50,274 nt of DNA from assembly GCA_001782475.1 (NCBI GenBank), contig MFOT01000007.1:1-50274 (forward strand), in the 5' to 3' direction. The number at the start of each line of letters is the position of its first letter. Position 1 is the stretch's first letter. The position numbers and the translations under genes are program-made. Origin of the DNA: Candidatus Levybacteria bacterium RIFCSPLOWO2_01_FULL_38_21 (GTDB lineage Bacteria > Patescibacteriota > Microgenomatia > Levybacterales > UBA12049). Below, piece after piece: positions 18,915 to 26,151 of this stretch. The notes beneath the pieces are model-generated. The model saw only the letters and a list, made by a program, of their open reading frames with translations, was not told where the DNA came from and did not search any database.

Positions 18915-21377
18915 ATGAAACTTGATGGAATAAGGAATAAAGTATTTTTGGATAGATATGCTTTAAAGGGAGTTAAGGGAGAGTTGCTTGAGAAATCTCC
19001 TGAGGAAATGTGGAAAAGAGTAGCAAGGGGTATTGCCGAAAATGAAAAGAAAATTAAAAGAGCTTATTGGAAACAAAAATTTTATAGTGTAATGAAAGAC
19101 TTCAAGTTTGTTCCCGGCGGAAGAATCCTCTCCGGTGCGGGAACAGATTATGAGGTGACCTATTTCAACTGCTTTGTTATTCCATCTCCAAAAGATTCAA
19201 GAGAGGGAATTTTAGAATCCTTAAAACAGCTGGTAGAGATTCAATCAAGATCAGGGGGAGTTGGTCTTAATCTTTCATCTCTAAGACCAAGGGGTGCCCG
19301 TGTTAAAAAAGTAAATGGAACATCCTCCGGTCCTGTAACTTGGGCAGGATTATTTTCATACGCAACCCATGATGTTGTCCAGCAAGGGGGAACAAGACGA
19401 GGAGCAACTATGCTTATGCTTTGGGACTGGCATCCGGATATTGAAGAATTTATAACTGTAAAACAGGACCTCTCCAAAATAAACGGAGCAAATCTTTCCG
19501 TTTGTATCTCCGATAGTTTTATGGAAGCGGTTAAAAAAGACAGCGATTGGGATTTGGTTTATCCGGACTTAGATGATCCTAAATACGATGCAAAATGGAA
19601 CGGAGAAATAGATGAGTGGAAAAAACTAGGCGGAAAAATAAAAGTTTATAAAATTGTAAAAGCCCGATATCTTTGGAATCTAATCTGCGAAGCTGCCTGG
19701 AGAAGTGCTGAGCCTGGGCTTCATTTTCTTCAAAGGTCAAATAAAAGAAGCAACACCTGGTATTTTGAAAAACTAATCGCCACAAATCCCTGCGGAGAAC
19801 AACCCCTTGGTGCTTGGGCTGTTTGTAATCTCGGTGCAATGAATTTGGCGGCCTATGTTAAAAATGAAAAATTCGATTATGAGAGCTTTTCGGAAGATGT
19901 AAAAGTTGCAATAAGATTCTTAGACAACGTTATAGATAAAACTTATCACTTCTTTAAACAGAACGAAAAAGTAGCCAAAGACATCAGAAGAACCGGACTT
20001 GGCATTATGGGCTTGGGAGATGCGCTTATTAAAATGAAAGTACGCTACGGATCAGATGAATCTCTTAAGATTATAGATAAAATTTTTGAGACTTTAAGAA
20101 ATAGCGCCTATGATGCATCTTCTGATATTGCAAAAGAAAAAGGAGCATTCCCAAAGTTCAATAAAGCAAAGTATTTGGAAGGTTACCATATTAAAGAGTT
20201 GACACCAGAAATTCAAAAAAAGATTGCAAAGCAGGGCATAAGAAATGCTGTTCTTTTAACTATTGCACCAACTGGAACAACTTCGCTTCTTTCGGGAGTG
20301 ACATCGGGGATTGAGCCGGTTTATGAATTCACCTTTATAAGGCGGGATAGAACCGGAGAGCACATTATGTATCATCCGTTTTTTGAAGAGTGGAAAAAAG
20401 AGAACCCTTCGGCAGGCTCAGGGCAAGTCCCGGATAGGCCTGATTATTTTGTCTGCGCAAATGATCTGACTCCACCTGAGCATGCGCAAGTTCAGGCAGT
20501 TGCGCAAAAATATGTAGATGCATCTATTTCAAAAACAGTGAATGCTCCAAACTCTCACACAGTCGAGGATGTAAAAACACTTTATATGGCAGCTTATGAC
20601 TTAGGACTTAAAGGGGTAACTTATATGAGAGATGGAAGTCGAGAGGGAGTTCTTTCAAGGGTTGAAGATAAAAAAGATCCTTCGGCAAGCTCAGGACAAG
20701 AGAAAATTACCAAACCGGTTATTCCACGCCCCATGCAGCTTGAAGGAGTGACTTATCAAATTCAAACACCTGTTGGAAAAACATACATTACTATTAATCA
20801 TAACGAGAACAAAGAGCCGTTTGAGGTTTTTATTACTATTGGAAAGTCAGGCTCTGATGTTGCGGCAATGGCAGATGCATTAGGCAGAATTATTTCCGTA
20901 AACCTTCGTCTCTTAGGAGGACTTTCTCCAAGAGAAAAAATAAGGGAGATTGTAGCCCAGCTTGCAGGAATTGGCGGAGCAAGAAGTGTCGGGTTTGGAA
21001 AAGATAAGGTGAGATCTTTACCAGACGGTGTTGCAAAAATACTTGCAATGCATTTTGGTTTCGCCGTAAATGGACAGGTTGAGGATAAAAATACTCAGGC
21101 CAATGGACAAGTCCAGCCCCAAGTATTAGCAAATGGGAACGGACCCTTTAATGGAAAAGCAGAAATTAAAACAGAAAACGAAAAAACCCCTGGGGTTGTT
21201 GAGATGCAACAGCTGGCACTGGTTGGAAAAGGAAGCGGACTTATGGCAGAAGACAGTAGTCCGTATGAGATAGCTGGAACAAGCCTTTATGATCTTTGTC
21301 CTGAATGCGGGGCGGGGAGTCTGGCATATGAGGAAGGATGCAGAAAATGCTACAGTTGTGGTTATTCAGAGTGCTAA
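18915..21377 (+). CDS. nrdJ: Adenosylcobalamin-dependent (class II) ribonucleotide reductase
   Basis: An 820-residue enzyme reducing ribonucleotides to deoxyribonucleotides with a B12-derived radical. Markers are FVPGGRILSGAGT, YFNCFVIPSPKDS, SGGVGLNLSSLRPRGA, NPCGEQPLG near residue 291 (active-site Cys and Glu), LTIAPTGTTSLLSGVTSGIEP and a C-terminal Cys-rich tail CPECGAG...GCRKCYSCGYSEC, which can deliver electrons. No N-terminal ATP-cone is present, so dATP overall-activity control would rest on NrdR. Two in-frame repeat inserts occur: NPSAGSGQV near 495 and DPSASSGQE near 588, both in regions likely to be surface loops. Confidence 0.96.
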   Translation: MKLDGIRNKVFLDRYALKGVKGELLEKSPEEMWKRVARGIAENEKKIKRAYWKQKFYSVMKDFKFVPGGRILSGAGTDYEVTYFNCFVIPSPKDSREGILESLKQLVEIQSRSGGVGLNLSSLRPRGARVKKVNGTSSGPVTWAGLFSYATHDVVQQGGTRRGATMLMLWDWHPDIEEFITVKQDLSKINGANLSVCISDSFMEAVKKDSDWDLVYPDLDDPKYDAKWNGEIDEWKKLGGKIKVYKIVKARYLWNLICEAAWRSAEPGLHFLQRSNKRSNTWYFEKLIATNPCGEQPLGAWAVCNLGAMNLAAYVKNEKFDYESFSEDVKVAIRFLDNVIDKTYHFFKQNEKVAKDIRRTGLGIMGLGDALIKMKVRYGSDESLKIIDKIFETLRNSAYDASSDIAKEKGAFPKFNKAKYLEGYHIKELTPEIQKKIAKQGIRNAVLLTIAPTGTTSLLSGVTSGIEPVYEFTFIRRDRTGEHIMYHPFFEEWKKENPSAGSGQVPDRPDYFVCANDLTPPEHAQVQAVAQKYVDASISKTVNAPNSHTVEDVKTLYMAAYDLGLKGVTYMRDGSREGVLSRVEDKKDPSASSGQEKITKPVIPRPMQLEGVTYQIQTPVGKTYITINHNENKEPFEVFITIGKSGSDVAAMADALGRIISVNLRLLGGLSPREKIREIVAQLAGIGGARSVGFGKDKVRSLPDGVAKILAMHFGFAVNGQVEDKNTQANGQVQPQVLANGNGPFNGKAEIKTENEKTPGVVEMQQLALVGKGSGLMAEDSSPYEIAGTSLYDLCPECGAGSLAYEEGCRKCYSCGYSEC

Positions 21378-21425
21378 CCAGCAACTAGCAACTAGTTTCT
21401 AGTGACTAGTTTTTGACAATTAAAT

Positions 21426-21515
21426 TTGGAGTTCCGAAGTCTTTGAAAATAAGACACTGTGCCGCAACCGTTAGAGTCGGGTCGAAGGCTCCAAGCTCAA
21501 ATTCCTCCTTCGAGC
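21426..21515 (+). ncRNA. Candidate cobalamin (AdoCbl-type) riboswitch
   Basis: The leader folds into a closing stem TTGGAG (21426-21431) with CTCCAA (21489-21494). A GTCTT-TGAAAAT-AAGAC hairpin lies inside (21439-21455), followed by GCCGCAACCG and GTCGAAGGCTCC. The loop TGAAAAT and the GAA-G-C-C segment before the closing stem recall the L4 loop and J6/3 strand of compact class II cobalamin riboswitches. A second hairpin GCTC/GAGC (21495-21515) could be the regulatory stem. The target gene, a cobalamin adenosyltransferase, fits. The match is from memory and by eye; a covariance-model search would decide. Confidence 0.55.
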
Positions 21516-21537
21516 AAAGGAAAAAGAAACAACTTTT

Positions 21538-21564
21538 AACCTTCTTGATCGAGAAGGTTTTTTT
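21538..21564 (+). terminator. Intrinsic terminator in the adenosyltransferase leader
   Basis: AACCTTCT-TGATCG-AGAAGGTT followed by five more T (stem 21538-21545 with 21552-21559). It lies between the candidate riboswitch and the adenosyltransferase gene, where it could act as the off-switch expression platform, or simply end the nrdJ transcript. Confidence 0.75.
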
Positions 21565-21615
21565 ATGCTTCGACAAGCTCAGCATAGCCCGAAGCATAGT
21601 GAGCAAGGAGTCGAA
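21565..21615 (+). repeat. Palindromic CTTCGACAAGCTCAG-type repeat
   Basis: ATGCTTC (21565-21571) pairs with GAAGCAT (21591-21597), and the element continues with TGAGCAAGGAGTCGAA. It belongs to the repeat family that is also inserted in frame in genes here. Its AAGGAG (21604-21609) lies 8 bases before the next ATG and doubles as the Shine-Dalgarno sequence. Confidence 0.7.
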
Positions 21616-21617
21616 CT

Positions 21618-22148
21618 ATGCCAATTTATACAAAAGCAGGGGATAAAGGACAAACAGGACTTTTTTCTGGAAAAAGAGTTTCAAAAGCAAACCCTCGGAT
21701 AGAGGCAATCGGTGCAGTGGATGAATTAAACAGCACGATAGGGTTCGCCCTATCGCAAATCCGAAATCCGAAATCCGAAATCCGAAAAGAATTAATAAAG
21801 ATTCAAAATGATCTATTTGAAATCGGCGCTGCGTTGGCAAATCCCAAACAGAAGATTAATCTTTCAAATAGAACAAAGGAATTCGAGAATATGATTGATA
21901 AAATGACTAAAGAATTGCCTCCGCTTTTTAACTTTGTTCTTCCTGGAGGAGGAATGGTAGGTTCATCTTTGCATATCGCAAGAACAGTTTGCCGTCGAAC
22001 GGAAAGAAGAATTGTTGAGTTATCTAAAAAAGAAAAAGTTCAAGGCGACCTCATTATTTATATAAATAGACTTTCCGATCTTTTTTTAACTATGTCAAGA
22101 TATATAAATTATAAAGAAAAACGGAAAGAGATTATTTGGAAAACCTAG
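21618..22148 (+). CDS. Cob(I)alamin adenosyltransferase, PduO type
   Basis: A 176-residue ATP:corrinoid adenosyltransferase that makes adenosylcobalamin, the cofactor of NrdJ upstream. It has the N-terminal TKAGDKGQTGLFSGKRVSK ATP-binding motif, RIEAIGAVDELNS, LPGGG, and HIARTVCRRTERRIV with the conserved Arg and Glu. The peptide SQIRNPKSEIRKE is an in-frame short-repeat insert (AATCCGA units at 21759-21787). No other cobalamin genes are visible, so salvage of external corrinoid is likely (inference). Confidence 0.93.
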   Translation: MPIYTKAGDKGQTGLFSGKRVSKANPRIEAIGAVDELNSTIGFALSQIRNPKSEIRKELIKIQNDLFEIGAALANPKQKINLSNRTKEFENMIDKMTKELPPLFNFVLPGGGMVGSSLHIARTVCRRTERRIVELSKKEKVQGDLIIYINRLSDLFLTMSRYINYKEKRKEIIWKT

Positions 22149-22160
22149 AGAGGAATTTTT

Positions 22161-23282
22161 ATGAGAACAGAAGCATATACAGTAGGTTTTGATACAAAAA
22201 ATTATCATGCGCCAATGCCTGATAATTATTCGCAAGATGAGATTTATCGAAGAAGAGAAAGCAATATTGGTAATAATATAATAAGATATTTAGGCGAATA
22301 TAGACTGGGAGTAAAGTATGATGAGTTTCATTATAATCTTGAGCAAGATGCTGAAAGTGGCGACTTTTTTCTTTCATCTCCCCACGCAGATCCAGGACCC
22401 ATATTAAATATCTATAGAAAGGCAATTAGTTACAAAGAAGAAAGAGGACTTCCGGTAGATAGAGAAGTAGCAGAATGTTTAGGATTCCAAAAACTGCAAG
22501 GAGGACTTGCAGATGCTCAAGAAGGAACATTAATTTTATGGGTTAGTCCTCCTGGACCAAAGGCTGATGGATATGGGGATCACAGTTTTACATTTATTGG
22601 GCAAGTAGTAAAAGACTCAGATGGAGGAAAAAGATTAAGAGTGATTCCTTACAGAAATGTTTTATCTTTGGAGGAGCATAAAAACTATTTGAAATATTTC
22701 AATGAAGATGCCCAACACTATGATAAAGATACAGACTTCCTAGCAAATCCAGTTGTCATTGAGCAATCAGAATCTATTCAAACACCAGACGACATAATAA
22801 GTTTTATCGGAGAGACTGAAAGGTTCAATATTGAATGGCGTAATAAGCTTACCCCCTTAATAATGCCTTTGGTAGGGGGATTTATACAGCTTGTTAGGGA
22901 AAAGGCATCGGATAAAGATTTGCTAAAAGCAAGACATGCAATTGAAAACTTTGTATTAGAGAAAAAAGATTACATCTTAGACAGGGACAGGAGTCCTCAG
23001 TTAGTTTTTGAAAACCAACCTCGGGAAGTTTTCGAAAGGTATGGAAACACTACTCCGCCAATTGTTGGCGGAAGCTGTGGGTTTAGCGCGAGCGGAGAGG
23101 ACAGTTCTATTTTGAGCATTAATCTTAAAGATAAATATGGACCAAGAATTTTTAGTTGTCCGGAGTGTGGAAAGACCAATATAAGACCCGAAAACGAACT
23201 CCTTTCCAATTGTCAGCATTGCGGCAGCGATAAAGTTTCCTGCTGTGATGTTGATAAATCTTCTTTTGTTCTTGCTGCATAA
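22161..23282 (+). CDS. Conserved-type hypothetical protein with C-terminal zinc ribbon
   Basis: A 373-residue soluble protein that I do not recognise by family. The N-terminal 220 residues are mixed alpha/beta with GTLILWVSPPGPKADGYGDHSFTFIGQV as the most motif-like stretch. A helical middle (LTPLIMPLVGGFIQLVREKASDKDLLKARHAI) follows, then a disordered linker. The end holds a zinc ribbon, CPECGKTN...CQHCGSD. The gene follows the adenosyltransferase by 12 bp with a GAGAGGA ribosome-binding site, so it may share its transcript. Possible regulator or scaffold; no function is claimed. Confidence 0.7.
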   Translation: MRTEAYTVGFDTKNYHAPMPDNYSQDEIYRRRESNIGNNIIRYLGEYRLGVKYDEFHYNLEQDAESGDFFLSSPHADPGPILNIYRKAISYKEERGLPVDREVAECLGFQKLQGGLADAQEGTLILWVSPPGPKADGYGDHSFTFIGQVVKDSDGGKRLRVIPYRNVLSLEEHKNYLKYFNEDAQHYDKDTDFLANPVVIEQSESIQTPDDIISFIGETERFNIEWRNKLTPLIMPLVGGFIQLVREKASDKDLLKARHAIENFVLEKKDYILDRDRSPQLVFENQPREVFERYGNTTPPIVGGSCGFSASGEDSSILSINLKDKYGPRIFSCPECGKTNIRPENELLSNCQHCGSDKVSCCDVDKSSFVLAA

Positions 23283-23341: not shown

Positions 23342-23776
23342 ATGGATCCGACTAAAGATCAAACAGATCAACCGACAGTTGTCCCTCCTAATCAGGATGT
23401 AGTTTCACCCATTGCTCCATCTGTTGGCGGCCCTTCTAAAGAAGTAGAACCGCCATCGCATGACTTGATAAGCTCATCCGAAAAAAGACCGGAAATTTCT
23501 GCCGAATTAGCAGAAATAGGAGTAAAAGAAGTTTCGGAAACTCCACAGTTGACTCAAGAACATACGGAAGCTGGGATAAGAGTTTCCCAAAGGCCGGTAG
23601 AGCCAGTAACAACTTCCGTGCCAGTAAGTTTTAAATCACCACTCACCCAAGCGGAAATGGCCATAGCTAAAAAAAGTAGGATCTCGGATGCGATTCACTG
23701 GCTTGCAGCAACAATATTAAGGCAAGTTAAAAGATCAAGATTTGATCAGAAGCAATCTTTGCCGAAACCGATATGA
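23342..23776 (+). CDS. Proline/serine-rich hypothetical protein, 144 aa
   Basis: Starts MDPTKDQTDQPTVVPPNQD and is low-complexity for about 110 residues (Pro, Ser, Glu, Thr). It ends in a short basic amphipathic helix (AIAKKSRISDAIHWLAATILRQVKRSRF). No transmembrane segment. The ATGA overlap (23773-23776) with the downstream ATPase shows translational coupling, so it may be a small partner or tether of that membrane ATPase. No known family was recognised. Confidence 0.65.
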   Translation: MDPTKDQTDQPTVVPPNQDVVSPIAPSVGGPSKEVEPPSHDLISSSEKRPEISAELAEIGVKEVSETPQLTQEHTEAGIRVSQRPVEPVTTSVPVSFKSPLTQAEMAIAKKSRISDAIHWLAATILRQVKRSRFDQKQSLPKPI

Positions 23777-26151
23777 CGTTAGAGACATTTTCACCTGCAA
23801 ATATAATAAATTTCTTTGTCCTATTCTTTCTGGGCATTTTTTCCGCAATTTTAATATTACTTTTGATTTTTCTTTTGGGGTACGGACTTATTCTTTGGTT
23901 TAGAAACAGAAATAGGGAAAAAGAATCTTTAGACTCAACTCTTCTTGAAGTTTCAATGCCGCGGGATAACGAAATTAAAATTGATGCCGCAGAACAAATG
24001 TTTGCAAGCTTTGCGTCACTTCGAAAAGGAAACAGATTGTCTTTTTTAAATTCTCAGCCGCATATTTCTTTTGAGATCGTTGGAATGCCTGAGGATATCC
24101 GTTTTTACGTGAATACCCCAAATAAAATTAAAGATTTTGTAGAAAAACAAATTAACGGCGCATATCCTGAGGCAGACATAAAAGAGGTAGAACAATCTCT
24201 TTTTACAAAAGAGGGCTATTCTATTGGAAATGAGTATAATATTTTTCCAAGAGAAGGTAAGGTCGCATTTACCAGTTTAAGACTTAAATTCTCAAATTAT
24301 ATGCCTATTAAGGTATTTAAAGACTTACCAACAGATCCTCTTTCCTCGCTTACCTCTGTTTTGGCAAAAATGGCTCACGGCGAAGGCGCCGCTATTCAAA
24401 TAATGCTTAGTCCTTCGGATTCCAGATGGAAAAAACAGGGCAGAACTTACATTTCAAAAATAAAAAAGGCTGAATCAAATCCCGAAACCGCAAAATACTC
24501 AGCAGACCCCAAGGAACTTGAAGGAATAGAGAATAAAATCGGAAAACCGGGGTTTAGTATTGTTATAAGAATAGTAGTTTCTTCGGTAACTTCAGAAGCT
24601 GCCCAAGCCCATTTAAATAATATTGTAAACAGCTTTAGTCAGTTTGACGGATTAAATTCATTTACGAGAAATTCACACAGATTCAAGGGCCTTTTTATGC
24701 ATGATTTTATCTACAGATATATGCCAATAAGAGGTCAAACCTCTGTTTTAACAAGCGAGGAGCTGACAACTATATTCCACTTTCCCAATAAAAGCGTTGA
24801 AACTCCTCATATACACTGGGTTACTGCAAAAAGAGCACCAGCTCCTATACAAATTTCACAATCCGGGCTTTTTCTTGGGAAAAGTAAATATAGAGGAATA
24901 GAAAAGCCTATTTATATTGATCTTGATGATCGAAGGCGCCATATGTATGTAATTGGAAAGACAGGCACTGGTAAATCCGAATTTTTAAAAGCTATGATAA
25001 TGCAGGATATAAAAAACGGAGAAGGTCTTGCGGTTATAGATCCTCACGGAGATTTAATCGATGACGTACTGCGACTTACTCCTTCTAAAAGAGCAGAGGA
25101 TGTTATATTGTTTGATCCATCAGATACCCAAAGGCCCATGGGTTTAAATATGCTTGAGGCAAGAACTGAGGAGCAAAAACATTATATTGTCTCATCAATA
25201 ATTGGCTTGATGTATAAACTTTTTGACCCGCACCAAACAGGTATTATCGGCCCTCGGTTTGAACATGCAATAAGAAACGCGATGTTAACCGTGATGTATG
25301 AAAAAGGAAGCACATTTGTCGAGGTTGTAAGAGCTCTGACCGACGCATCTTATGTTCAGGAGATTTTGCCAAAAGTTCAGGATCCGATCATTAGACGTTA
25401 TTGGACAGATCAGATTGCTCAAACATCAGACTTTCATAAATCAGAAGTCTTAGATTATATTGTTTCAAAATTTGGAAGATTTGTAACGAATAAAACAATT
25501 AGAAATATTATTGGACAATCTTATAGCTCATTCGATTTTAGAAAAGTTATGGATGAGGGAAAAATTTTGTTAATTAATTTATCAAAAGGAAAGATAGGGG
25601 AGGAAAACTCAAATTTCCTAGGCCTTGTTCTTGTGCCGAAAATCTTAGTTGCCGCAATGTCCAGGCAGGATGTGCCGATTGATCAAAGGCGGGATTTCTT
25701 CTTATATGTTGATGAATTTCAAAACTTTGCAACACCGGATTTTGCCCAAATATTATCTGAAGCACGAAAATATAGACTTAATTTAATTGTTGCAAATCAG
25801 TTTATTGGGCAGATGGAAGAGGATGTTAAAAATGCAATATTTGGAAACGTAGGGTCAATTATTTCATTTAGAGTTGGTGTTACCGATGCAAATTATCTTC
25901 AGCACGAGTATCAGCCGGTTTTTACCGAGGCAGATTTGATAAATGTTGAAAGATTTAATACTTATGTTAAAACTATTGTAAAAGGTGAACCGGTTACACC
26001 TTTTTCTATGGATTTAACGCGCGATATGAGTGAAGAGAAAAAACTTATGAATCCAAGAGTCTCGGAGCTTATCCGCGAACTTTCAAGACTTAAGTACGGA
26101 AAAGATATCATGCAAGTTGAAGCGGAGATTGCAAAAAGAGCCAAATTATAA
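23773..26151 (+). CDS. VirD4/TraM-recognition-like membrane ATPase (DUF87/HerA-FtsK superfamily)
   Basis: A 792-residue protein with one or two N-terminal membrane segments (about 10-45), a large domain containing FEIVGMPEDIRFYVNTPNK, and a C-terminal RecA-like motor. Walker A is VIGKTGTGKS near residue 395; DPHGDLIDDVL follows; Walker B is FFLYVDEFQNF near 640; a sensor-like ANQFIGQM comes next. This architecture is frequent in candidate-phyla bacteria and related to type IV coupling ATPases that pump DNA or protein. No relaxase or other type IV secretion genes are nearby, so a role in conjugation is not supported; DNA uptake or surface-protein handling are alternatives. Confidence 0.8.
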   Translation: MTLETFSPANIINFFVLFFLGIFSAILILLLIFLLGYGLILWFRNRNREKESLDSTLLEVSMPRDNEIKIDAAEQMFASFASLRKGNRLSFLNSQPHISFEIVGMPEDIRFYVNTPNKIKDFVEKQINGAYPEADIKEVEQSLFTKEGYSIGNEYNIFPREGKVAFTSLRLKFSNYMPIKVFKDLPTDPLSSLTSVLAKMAHGEGAAIQIMLSPSDSRWKKQGRTYISKIKKAESNPETAKYSADPKELEGIENKIGKPGFSIVIRIVVSSVTSEAAQAHLNNIVNSFSQFDGLNSFTRNSHRFKGLFMHDFIYRYMPIRGQTSVLTSEELTTIFHFPNKSVETPHIHWVTAKRAPAPIQISQSGLFLGKSKYRGIEKPIYIDLDDRRRHMYVIGKTGTGKSEFLKAMIMQDIKNGEGLAVIDPHGDLIDDVLRLTPSKRAEDVILFDPSDTQRPMGLNMLEARTEEQKHYIVSSIIGLMYKLFDPHQTGIIGPRFEHAIRNAMLTVMYEKGSTFVEVVRALTDASYVQEILPKVQDPIIRRYWTDQIAQTSDFHKSEVLDYIVSKFGRFVTNKTIRNIIGQSYSSFDFRKVMDEGKILLINLSKGKIGEENSNFLGLVLVPKILVAAMSRQDVPIDQRRDFFLYVDEFQNFATPDFAQILSEARKYRLNLIVANQFIGQMEEDVKNAIFGNVGSIISFRVGVTDANYLQHEYQPVFTEADLINVERFNTYVKTIVKGEPVTPFSMDLTRDMSEEKKLMNPRVSELIRELSRLKYGKDIMQVEAEIAKRAKL

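Follow-up and report, generated by a model that had tools for sequence, protein, structure and literature searches.

Almost certainly, the DNA between the genes for the ribonucleotide reductase NrdJ and a PduO-type adenosyltransferase carries a real vitamin B12 (cobalamin) riboswitch. We consider it highly probable that positions 21425-21564 of the forward strand act as a transcription-terminating OFF riboswitch of a divergent Microgenomates subtype, with a cobalamin, most likely adenosylcobalamin (AdoCbl), as its ligand and with a hairpin, P13, and an antiterminator as the two states of the switch. By comparison of sequences, this reading has as its basis the homology of the aptamer, covarying helices together with a kissing loop, a B12 gene context and an intrinsic terminator. 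The window, as we call the whole stretch of DNA analysed, is a 50 kb contig (50,274 nucleotides) from a Levybacteria genome of 0.79 Mb that is 98% complete.

A cobalamin riboswitch between nrdJ and the adenosyltransferase gene

The element fills the gap between the two genes, and its first part (21425-21521) folds as a cobalamin-riboswitch aptamer consisting of P3 to P6 and of P13 with its loop L13. All features lie on the forward strand:

18915-21377 (+): NrdJ, adenosylcobalamin-dependent ribonucleotide reductase, the upstream B12 user (TIGR02504, 1.5e-177)
21425-21431/21489-21495 (+): P3 closing helix UUUGGAG/CUCCAAG, enclosing the junction core; stem TTGGAG 21426-21431 with CTCCAA 21489-21494, or 7 bp counting U21425-G21495; 7 of 7 pairs change on both sides and 97.5% of cells are paired (17 distinct sequences)
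21432-21438 (+): J3/4, UUCCGAA; its CCGAA is the mark of type C (see later in the text), shared by every type C sequence that scores above 85 bits and absent from types A and B
21439-21455 (+): P4 hairpin GUCUU-UGAAAAU-AAGAC with conserved loop L4; two-sided changes in each of its 5 pairs
21458-21466 (+): P5 and L5; the UGC of L5 is the aptamer half of the kissing loop and pairs with the GCA of L13
21468-21480 (+): P6, CCG/CGG, very short and without extension; middle pair CG, UA or GC, depending on the species
21481-21488 (+): J6/3, GUCGAAGG, longer than the AAAA of type A; likely the ligand-contacting strand
21506-21521 (+): P13 hairpin UCCUU-CGAGCA-AAGGA; L13 contributes its GCA to the kissing loop as the platform half; two-sided changes in 4 of 5 pairs; -4.0 kcal/mol
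21517-21526/21533-21543 (+): predicted antiterminator AAGGAAAAAG/CUUUUAACCUU, excluding both P13 and the terminator; -4.0 kcal/mol
21538-21564 (+): intrinsic terminator AACCUUCUU-GAUC-GAGAAGGUU with U-tract, from the terminator scan; hairpin 21538-21559
21565-21617 (+): 53-nt insert carrying a dispersed CTTCGACAAGCTCAG repeat and separating the hairpin-U-tract-AUG from the start codon of the adenosyltransferase gene
21618-22148 (+): PduO-type ATP:cob(I)alamin adenosyltransferase (ATR), the controlled gene (PF01923, 6e-59; TIGR00636, 2e-58)
22161-23282 (+): ORF-X, 373 aa with a C-terminal zinc ribbon, starting 12 nt after the ATR stop codon

A search for a sigma-70-like promoter just upstream of the riboswitch found none. 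A short direct repeat around CAACTAGCAACTAG (21375-21412) lies immediately upstream of the element, and a tandem TCCGAAA repeat (21760-21788) lies within the adenosyltransferase gene, where it is translated inside IRNPKSEIRK.

A preliminary description of this DNA, made from the letters alone, had proposed a compact cobalamin riboswitch built of a closing stem, a hairpin with a TGAAAAT loop, the segments CGCAACCG and CGAAGGCTCC, a second hairpin and a terminator ahead of a PduO-type adenosyltransferase. All these parts were found where it had placed them, and the second hairpin can now be named more precisely as P13, whose loop makes the kissing interaction. A search with the Rfam covariance models, which it had named as a check, agrees with the proposal through matches that are significant and below the cut-offs. 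At the gathering thresholds, Rfam reports only two tRNAs in the window, and the riboswitch is absent from its output. Below them, RF01482 (AdoCbl) matches 21411-21532 with 38.8 bits (cut-off 50; E-values of 6.6e-5 for 3 kb searched and 5e-6 for 231 b searched), and RF01689 (AdoCbl-II) matches 21426-21494 with 30.2 bits (cut-off 36.5; E of 1.5e-5 for the whole genome). When the element's own genome was scanned in full, it was recovered by RF01689 and missed by RF01482. A motif written from the relatives and the window had one match in the window and none in shuffles. Since neither of the two closest families reaches its cut-off, we file the element as a variant within the cobalamin riboswitch clan (CL00101), to which it belongs by every testable structural feature, binding itself being predicted. 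Automatic annotation misses type C elements because their scores stay below the Rfam cut-offs, and in the open-access literature searched, cobalamin riboswitches of Patescibacteria are nowhere described.

Covarying helices and the kissing loop

With a z of 0.30, the window aptamer has an unremarkable folding energy, and the pseudoknot-free minimum free energy (MFE) structure of the full transcript favours a different fold of the aptamer core. The MFE z-score, not being significant, was dropped as proof of structure in favour of covariation; as the energy is uninformative, the proof of the element is comparative. We used 17 distinct sequences, 16 of them clear type C and one outlier (L142, 64.9 bits). 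The four-way junction core of P3, P4, P5 and P6 is present, 97.6% of 369 helix cells are paired, and two-sided changes occur in all helices and in 18 of 22 pairs, a level that 0 of 500 shuffles reach. Sliding the partners by 1-3 columns lowers the pairing to 23.7-58.3%. The alignment was fitted to the model and is hence biased towards the structure; the two-sided changes are still plain in the raw sequences. Covariation is thus found where the preliminary description would have taken its absence as a refutation. A further example is the second pair of P5, which changes from G-C to A-U among type C sequences. A Watson-Crick helix between J3/4 and J6/3 (CGA/UCG) is possible in most sequences, without co-variation, and both strands were kept as junction.

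The kissing loop between L5 and L13, which couples aptamer and platform in cobalamin riboswitches (PMC9600662), co-varies in the sequence comparison. Across all subtypes, UGC in L5 with GCA in L13 is by far the commonest pairing, and where L5 differs, L13 differs to match: AGC with GCU (L062, L075), GGC with GCC (L189) and UAC with GU-type loops (L165, L167, L171, L172). Because some of the carriers are close relatives, we count these as about four independent events. Mis-assigned L13 (terminator loops; L064, L096) and mis-assigned L5 (L097, L179) were not counted as evidence. Within the type C alignment alone, the L5-L13 support is weaker owing to one-base insertions.

Type C, a lineage-limited subtype

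Three subtypes can be told apart by their junction strands, A (GGYAA ... AGAAAAC), B (GGGUGAA ... AGAUCCCC) and C (CCGAA ... KCKMAGR), the assignment being by pattern and leaving 33 of the 125 elements of the wider set without a fit. The window element is of type C. Type C differs from type A by a longer, YYCCGAA-like J3/4 and by RKCKMAGR as J6/3, where type A has the shorter GYAA/AAAA. A type C covariance model (R1), built from five type C sequences including the window, gave 14 matches of at least 85 bits in 374 genomes of the class, the next being at 65 bits; this gap indicates that type C is a discrete group. One of the elements missed by the patterns (L120, listed there as L132) is clearly type C by the model, and searches in the family added two further type C genomes. 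The window scores highest among the type C sequences, with 119 bits, having itself been in the training set. The type C pattern, searched over about 85,000 species, found 15 stretches, 14 of them in candidate-phylum metagenome-assembled genomes (MAGs) labelled Levybacteria, Daviesbacteria, Roizmanbacteria, Curtissbacteria, Gottesmanbacteria or only 'Patescibacteria' or 'bacterium'. The fifteenth, in Microbacterium (L160), was not confirmed by the covariance model and was treated as a chance match. By covariance model, type C is so far seen only in Microgenomates, where a name is given; the close named matches are Levybacteria/Levyibacteriota, which are part of the Microgenomates group of Patescibacteria. 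A general model, R2, also matches 41 sampled genomes of the same phylum outside the class. Type A stands at the orthologous locus in the same genus and in a near genus (L062, L063), with adenosyltransferases 80% identical, so the aptamer subtype was switched here while the gene stayed.

AdoCbl-II (RF01689) shares with type C the compact P3-P6 core, the short P6 and the gene context; P6 of the window has 3 bp and a 7-nt loop, leaving the core without a long P6 extension. In the GTDB family of the window, where 60 of 73 genomes have an adenosyltransferase, RF01689 has a match at E ≤ 1 in 60 of 73 and one above the cut-off in 37 of 73. These 37 owe it to elements of other subtypes, one of which occupies the corresponding site in sister species G005, whereas type C reaches 27.8-32.9 bits in five of the six type C genomes of the family, with no listed match in the sixth (G050). 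For the window, as for L031, L033 and L036, AdoCbl (RF01482) scores best of the Rfam families, and its matches span P3 to P13 including most of L13; however, they score 38.8-48.9 bits against the cut-off of 50, and parts of the model's P3 base, P6 extension and lower P13 stem are deleted in them. The classical cobalamin riboswitch of the btuB/btuF type (RF00174) has the same L5-L13 coupling of aptamer and platform, but the window lacks its P6 accessory domain and gives no sign of the outer P1-P2 arms; RF00174 is not the best clan member for the window. Thus, of the two options left by the preliminary description, a divergent or a new class, the first stands, with differing J3/4 and J6/3 and both Rfam scores below cut-off, and the second does not, the P3-P6 core and L5-L13 being kept. 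Judged by its sequence, the element is a divergent, lineage-limited subtype within the known cobalamin clan.

Genes behind the riboswitches and the nature of the ligand

The elements precede genes of B12 uptake, synthesis or use, namely ATR, CobQ, DUF4430/alpha-toroid and DUF6580. The first assigned gene behind the 125 elements of all subtypes is ORF-X in 58 cases (e.g. L062:2089-3213, L164:4068-5378), which makes ORF-X homologues the commonest target, followed by adenosyltransferase (22), DUF4430 (22), DUF6580 (4) and CobQ (1), with none assigned in 18. Type C elements stand before PduO in the window, L073 and L120, before DUF4430 and alpha-toroid proteins in L071, L125 and L166, and before cobyric acid synthase in L162; CobQ also lies behind the outlier L142. 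They precede members of the ORF-X family as well, and in L170 a CobA-type corrinoid adenosyltransferase lies behind ORF-X.

DUF4430 and alpha-toroid domains together recall the two halves of animal transcobalamin. Genes for such proteins, with one for the membrane protein DUF6580 nearby, were observed under cobalamin riboswitches at L125:4403-7031, L071:1404-4069 and L118:1455-3994, and together they are candidates for the B12 uptake machinery of Microgenomates. In the window's own genome, neither DUF6580 nor DUF4430 proteins of this uptake-like kind were found. DUF4430 is mentioned in a paper on vertebrate B12 binders (PMC4350170).

The ligand may be a corrinoid other than AdoCbl, the aptamer preferring methyl-, hydroxo- or a base-off cobamide. 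J3/4 and J6/3 differ from those of types A and B in related genomes, several of the genes behind type C elements resemble uptake or salvage genes, and corrinoid selectivity is known to vary among cobalamin riboswitches (PMC9600662). However, the gene behind the window element makes AdoCbl and follows an AdoCbl-dependent reductase, which is a natural layout for AdoCbl feedback, and we regard another preferred corrinoid as unlikely here.

A predicted switch between P13 and an antiterminator

P13 and the antiterminator share the strand AAGG, are mutually exclusive and are computed to be equally stable (-4.0 kcal/mol), so stabilisation of P13 by the ligand should cause termination. The antiterminator appears in the MFE fold of the transcript ending at 21545; for transcripts ending at 21546-21554 its probability is about 0.65-0.68 and that of P13 at most 0.06, in a calculation that cannot include the ligand-made kissing loop. 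By computation, the antiterminator dominates before the terminator is completed. In the predicted competition, the ligand would fill the P3-P6 junction, L5 (UGC) would kiss L13 (GCA), and P13 would be held shut; with its AAGG strand thus kept from the terminator's 5' arm, the terminator would form (21538-21564), and the adenosyltransferase and ORF-X would not be made. Without ligand, AAGG would leave P13 for the antiterminator, giving read-through. The riboswitch thus probably shuts off the gene of a B12-activating enzyme when the B12 coenzyme is plentiful, and with AdoCbl as ligand it would tune the supply to NrdJ.

Examination of 18 type C elements showed a terminator after P13 in 13 of them. 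The complementarity needed for the antiterminator exceeded that of composition shuffles (p < 0.05) in only three of the 13 (L167, L170, L174); with so few relatives passing, the antiterminator is a model for the window, based mainly on the window's own fold. In four of the five elements without a terminator (L071, L163, L164, L206), the 3' strand of P13, AAGG, is the Shine-Dalgarno sequence beside the start codon. These relatives would use a translational version of the same logic, both platforms reading the closure of P13 as OFF.

In the relatives, the terminator is often fused to the start of the gene. Among 96 ORFs near riboswitches, 32 have a hairpin of 6 bp or more, then T6-9 and ATG; among 392 other ORFs of the same DNA there is one such case (L176), which starts an ORF-X homologue behind an R1 match. 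The 3' arm of the fused hairpin is typically GAGGAG or AGAAGGA, so the same strand serves the terminator and carries the Shine-Dalgarno sequence, which makes for unusually compact control. Examples just before a start codon were observed in L079, L066, L085, L106 and others. In the sister species L062, the same hairpin-T7-ATG runs directly into the ATR reading frame, whereas in the window the 53-nt dispersed repeat separates the AUG at 21565 from the ATR AUG at 21618, puts the two out of frame and supplies its own AAGGAG Shine-Dalgarno. With this sequence provided by the insert, the terminator should act alone in the window. The repeat core CTTCGACAAGCTCAG has 13 near-copies in the window, compared with 1.1 expected; its sites include 21568-21582, 20407, 20680, 12998, 30534, 42438 and 45278, two being inside the NrdJ gene and translated.

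An ON switch, or a purely translational one, in place of termination and OFF control would be in keeping with the many relatives whose terminator arm also bears a Shine-Dalgarno sequence. We hold this to be improbable, as the insert places the Shine-Dalgarno of the window's ATR outside the hairpin and, in the relatives, formation of P13 sequesters AAGG. The low Rfam scores and the repeat between terminator and gene could also be those of a decayed relic in which only the terminator is active, but neither the helices, nor L4, L5 and L13, nor the terminator show any damage, and the window has the best type C score (119 bits, as one of the five sequences behind the model), which renders decay very improbable. 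The non-significant fold energy alone might suggest that two hairpins and a terminator came together by chance, with no regulatory role, but the probability of this is negligible in view of covariation far above shuffles, significant Rfam matches and the B12 genes next to such elements in named genomes from five groups of Microgenomates.

ORF-X and a possible candidate-phylum B12 regulon

ORF-X, 12 nt behind ATR, is probably on the same transcript. The window protein belongs to no Pfam or NCBIfam family, and only its C-terminal zinc ribbon is recognisable. Its structure, predicted with confidence from a 45-member alignment (pLDDT of 88.1), had no PDB or viral match at E ≤ 0.001 in a fold search. 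Two genes behind ORF-X lies a HerA/TrwB/TraG-like ATPase (23773-26151). The order of ORF-X, a small protein and a large membrane-anchored protein is also seen at L073.

As a tentative and rather doubtful extension, type C may stand apart from the other cobalamin aptamers as a subtype whose junction is built in its own way and which perhaps favours a corrinoid of its own. All three types would then mark a B12 regulon of candidate-phylum bacteria. The commonest target of this regulon, ORF-X, would be a new B12-handling or B12-sparing family, and it would often be governed by a single hairpin serving as terminator arm, Shine-Dalgarno sequence and AUG spacer.

In these tiny bacteria with a B12-dependent reductase, the riboswitches offer a direct handle on the acquisition and rationing of B12. 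Two leads come from them, the DUF4430/alpha-toroid proteins, which resemble transcobalamin, and ORF-X, for which a connection with B12 is now open to testing.
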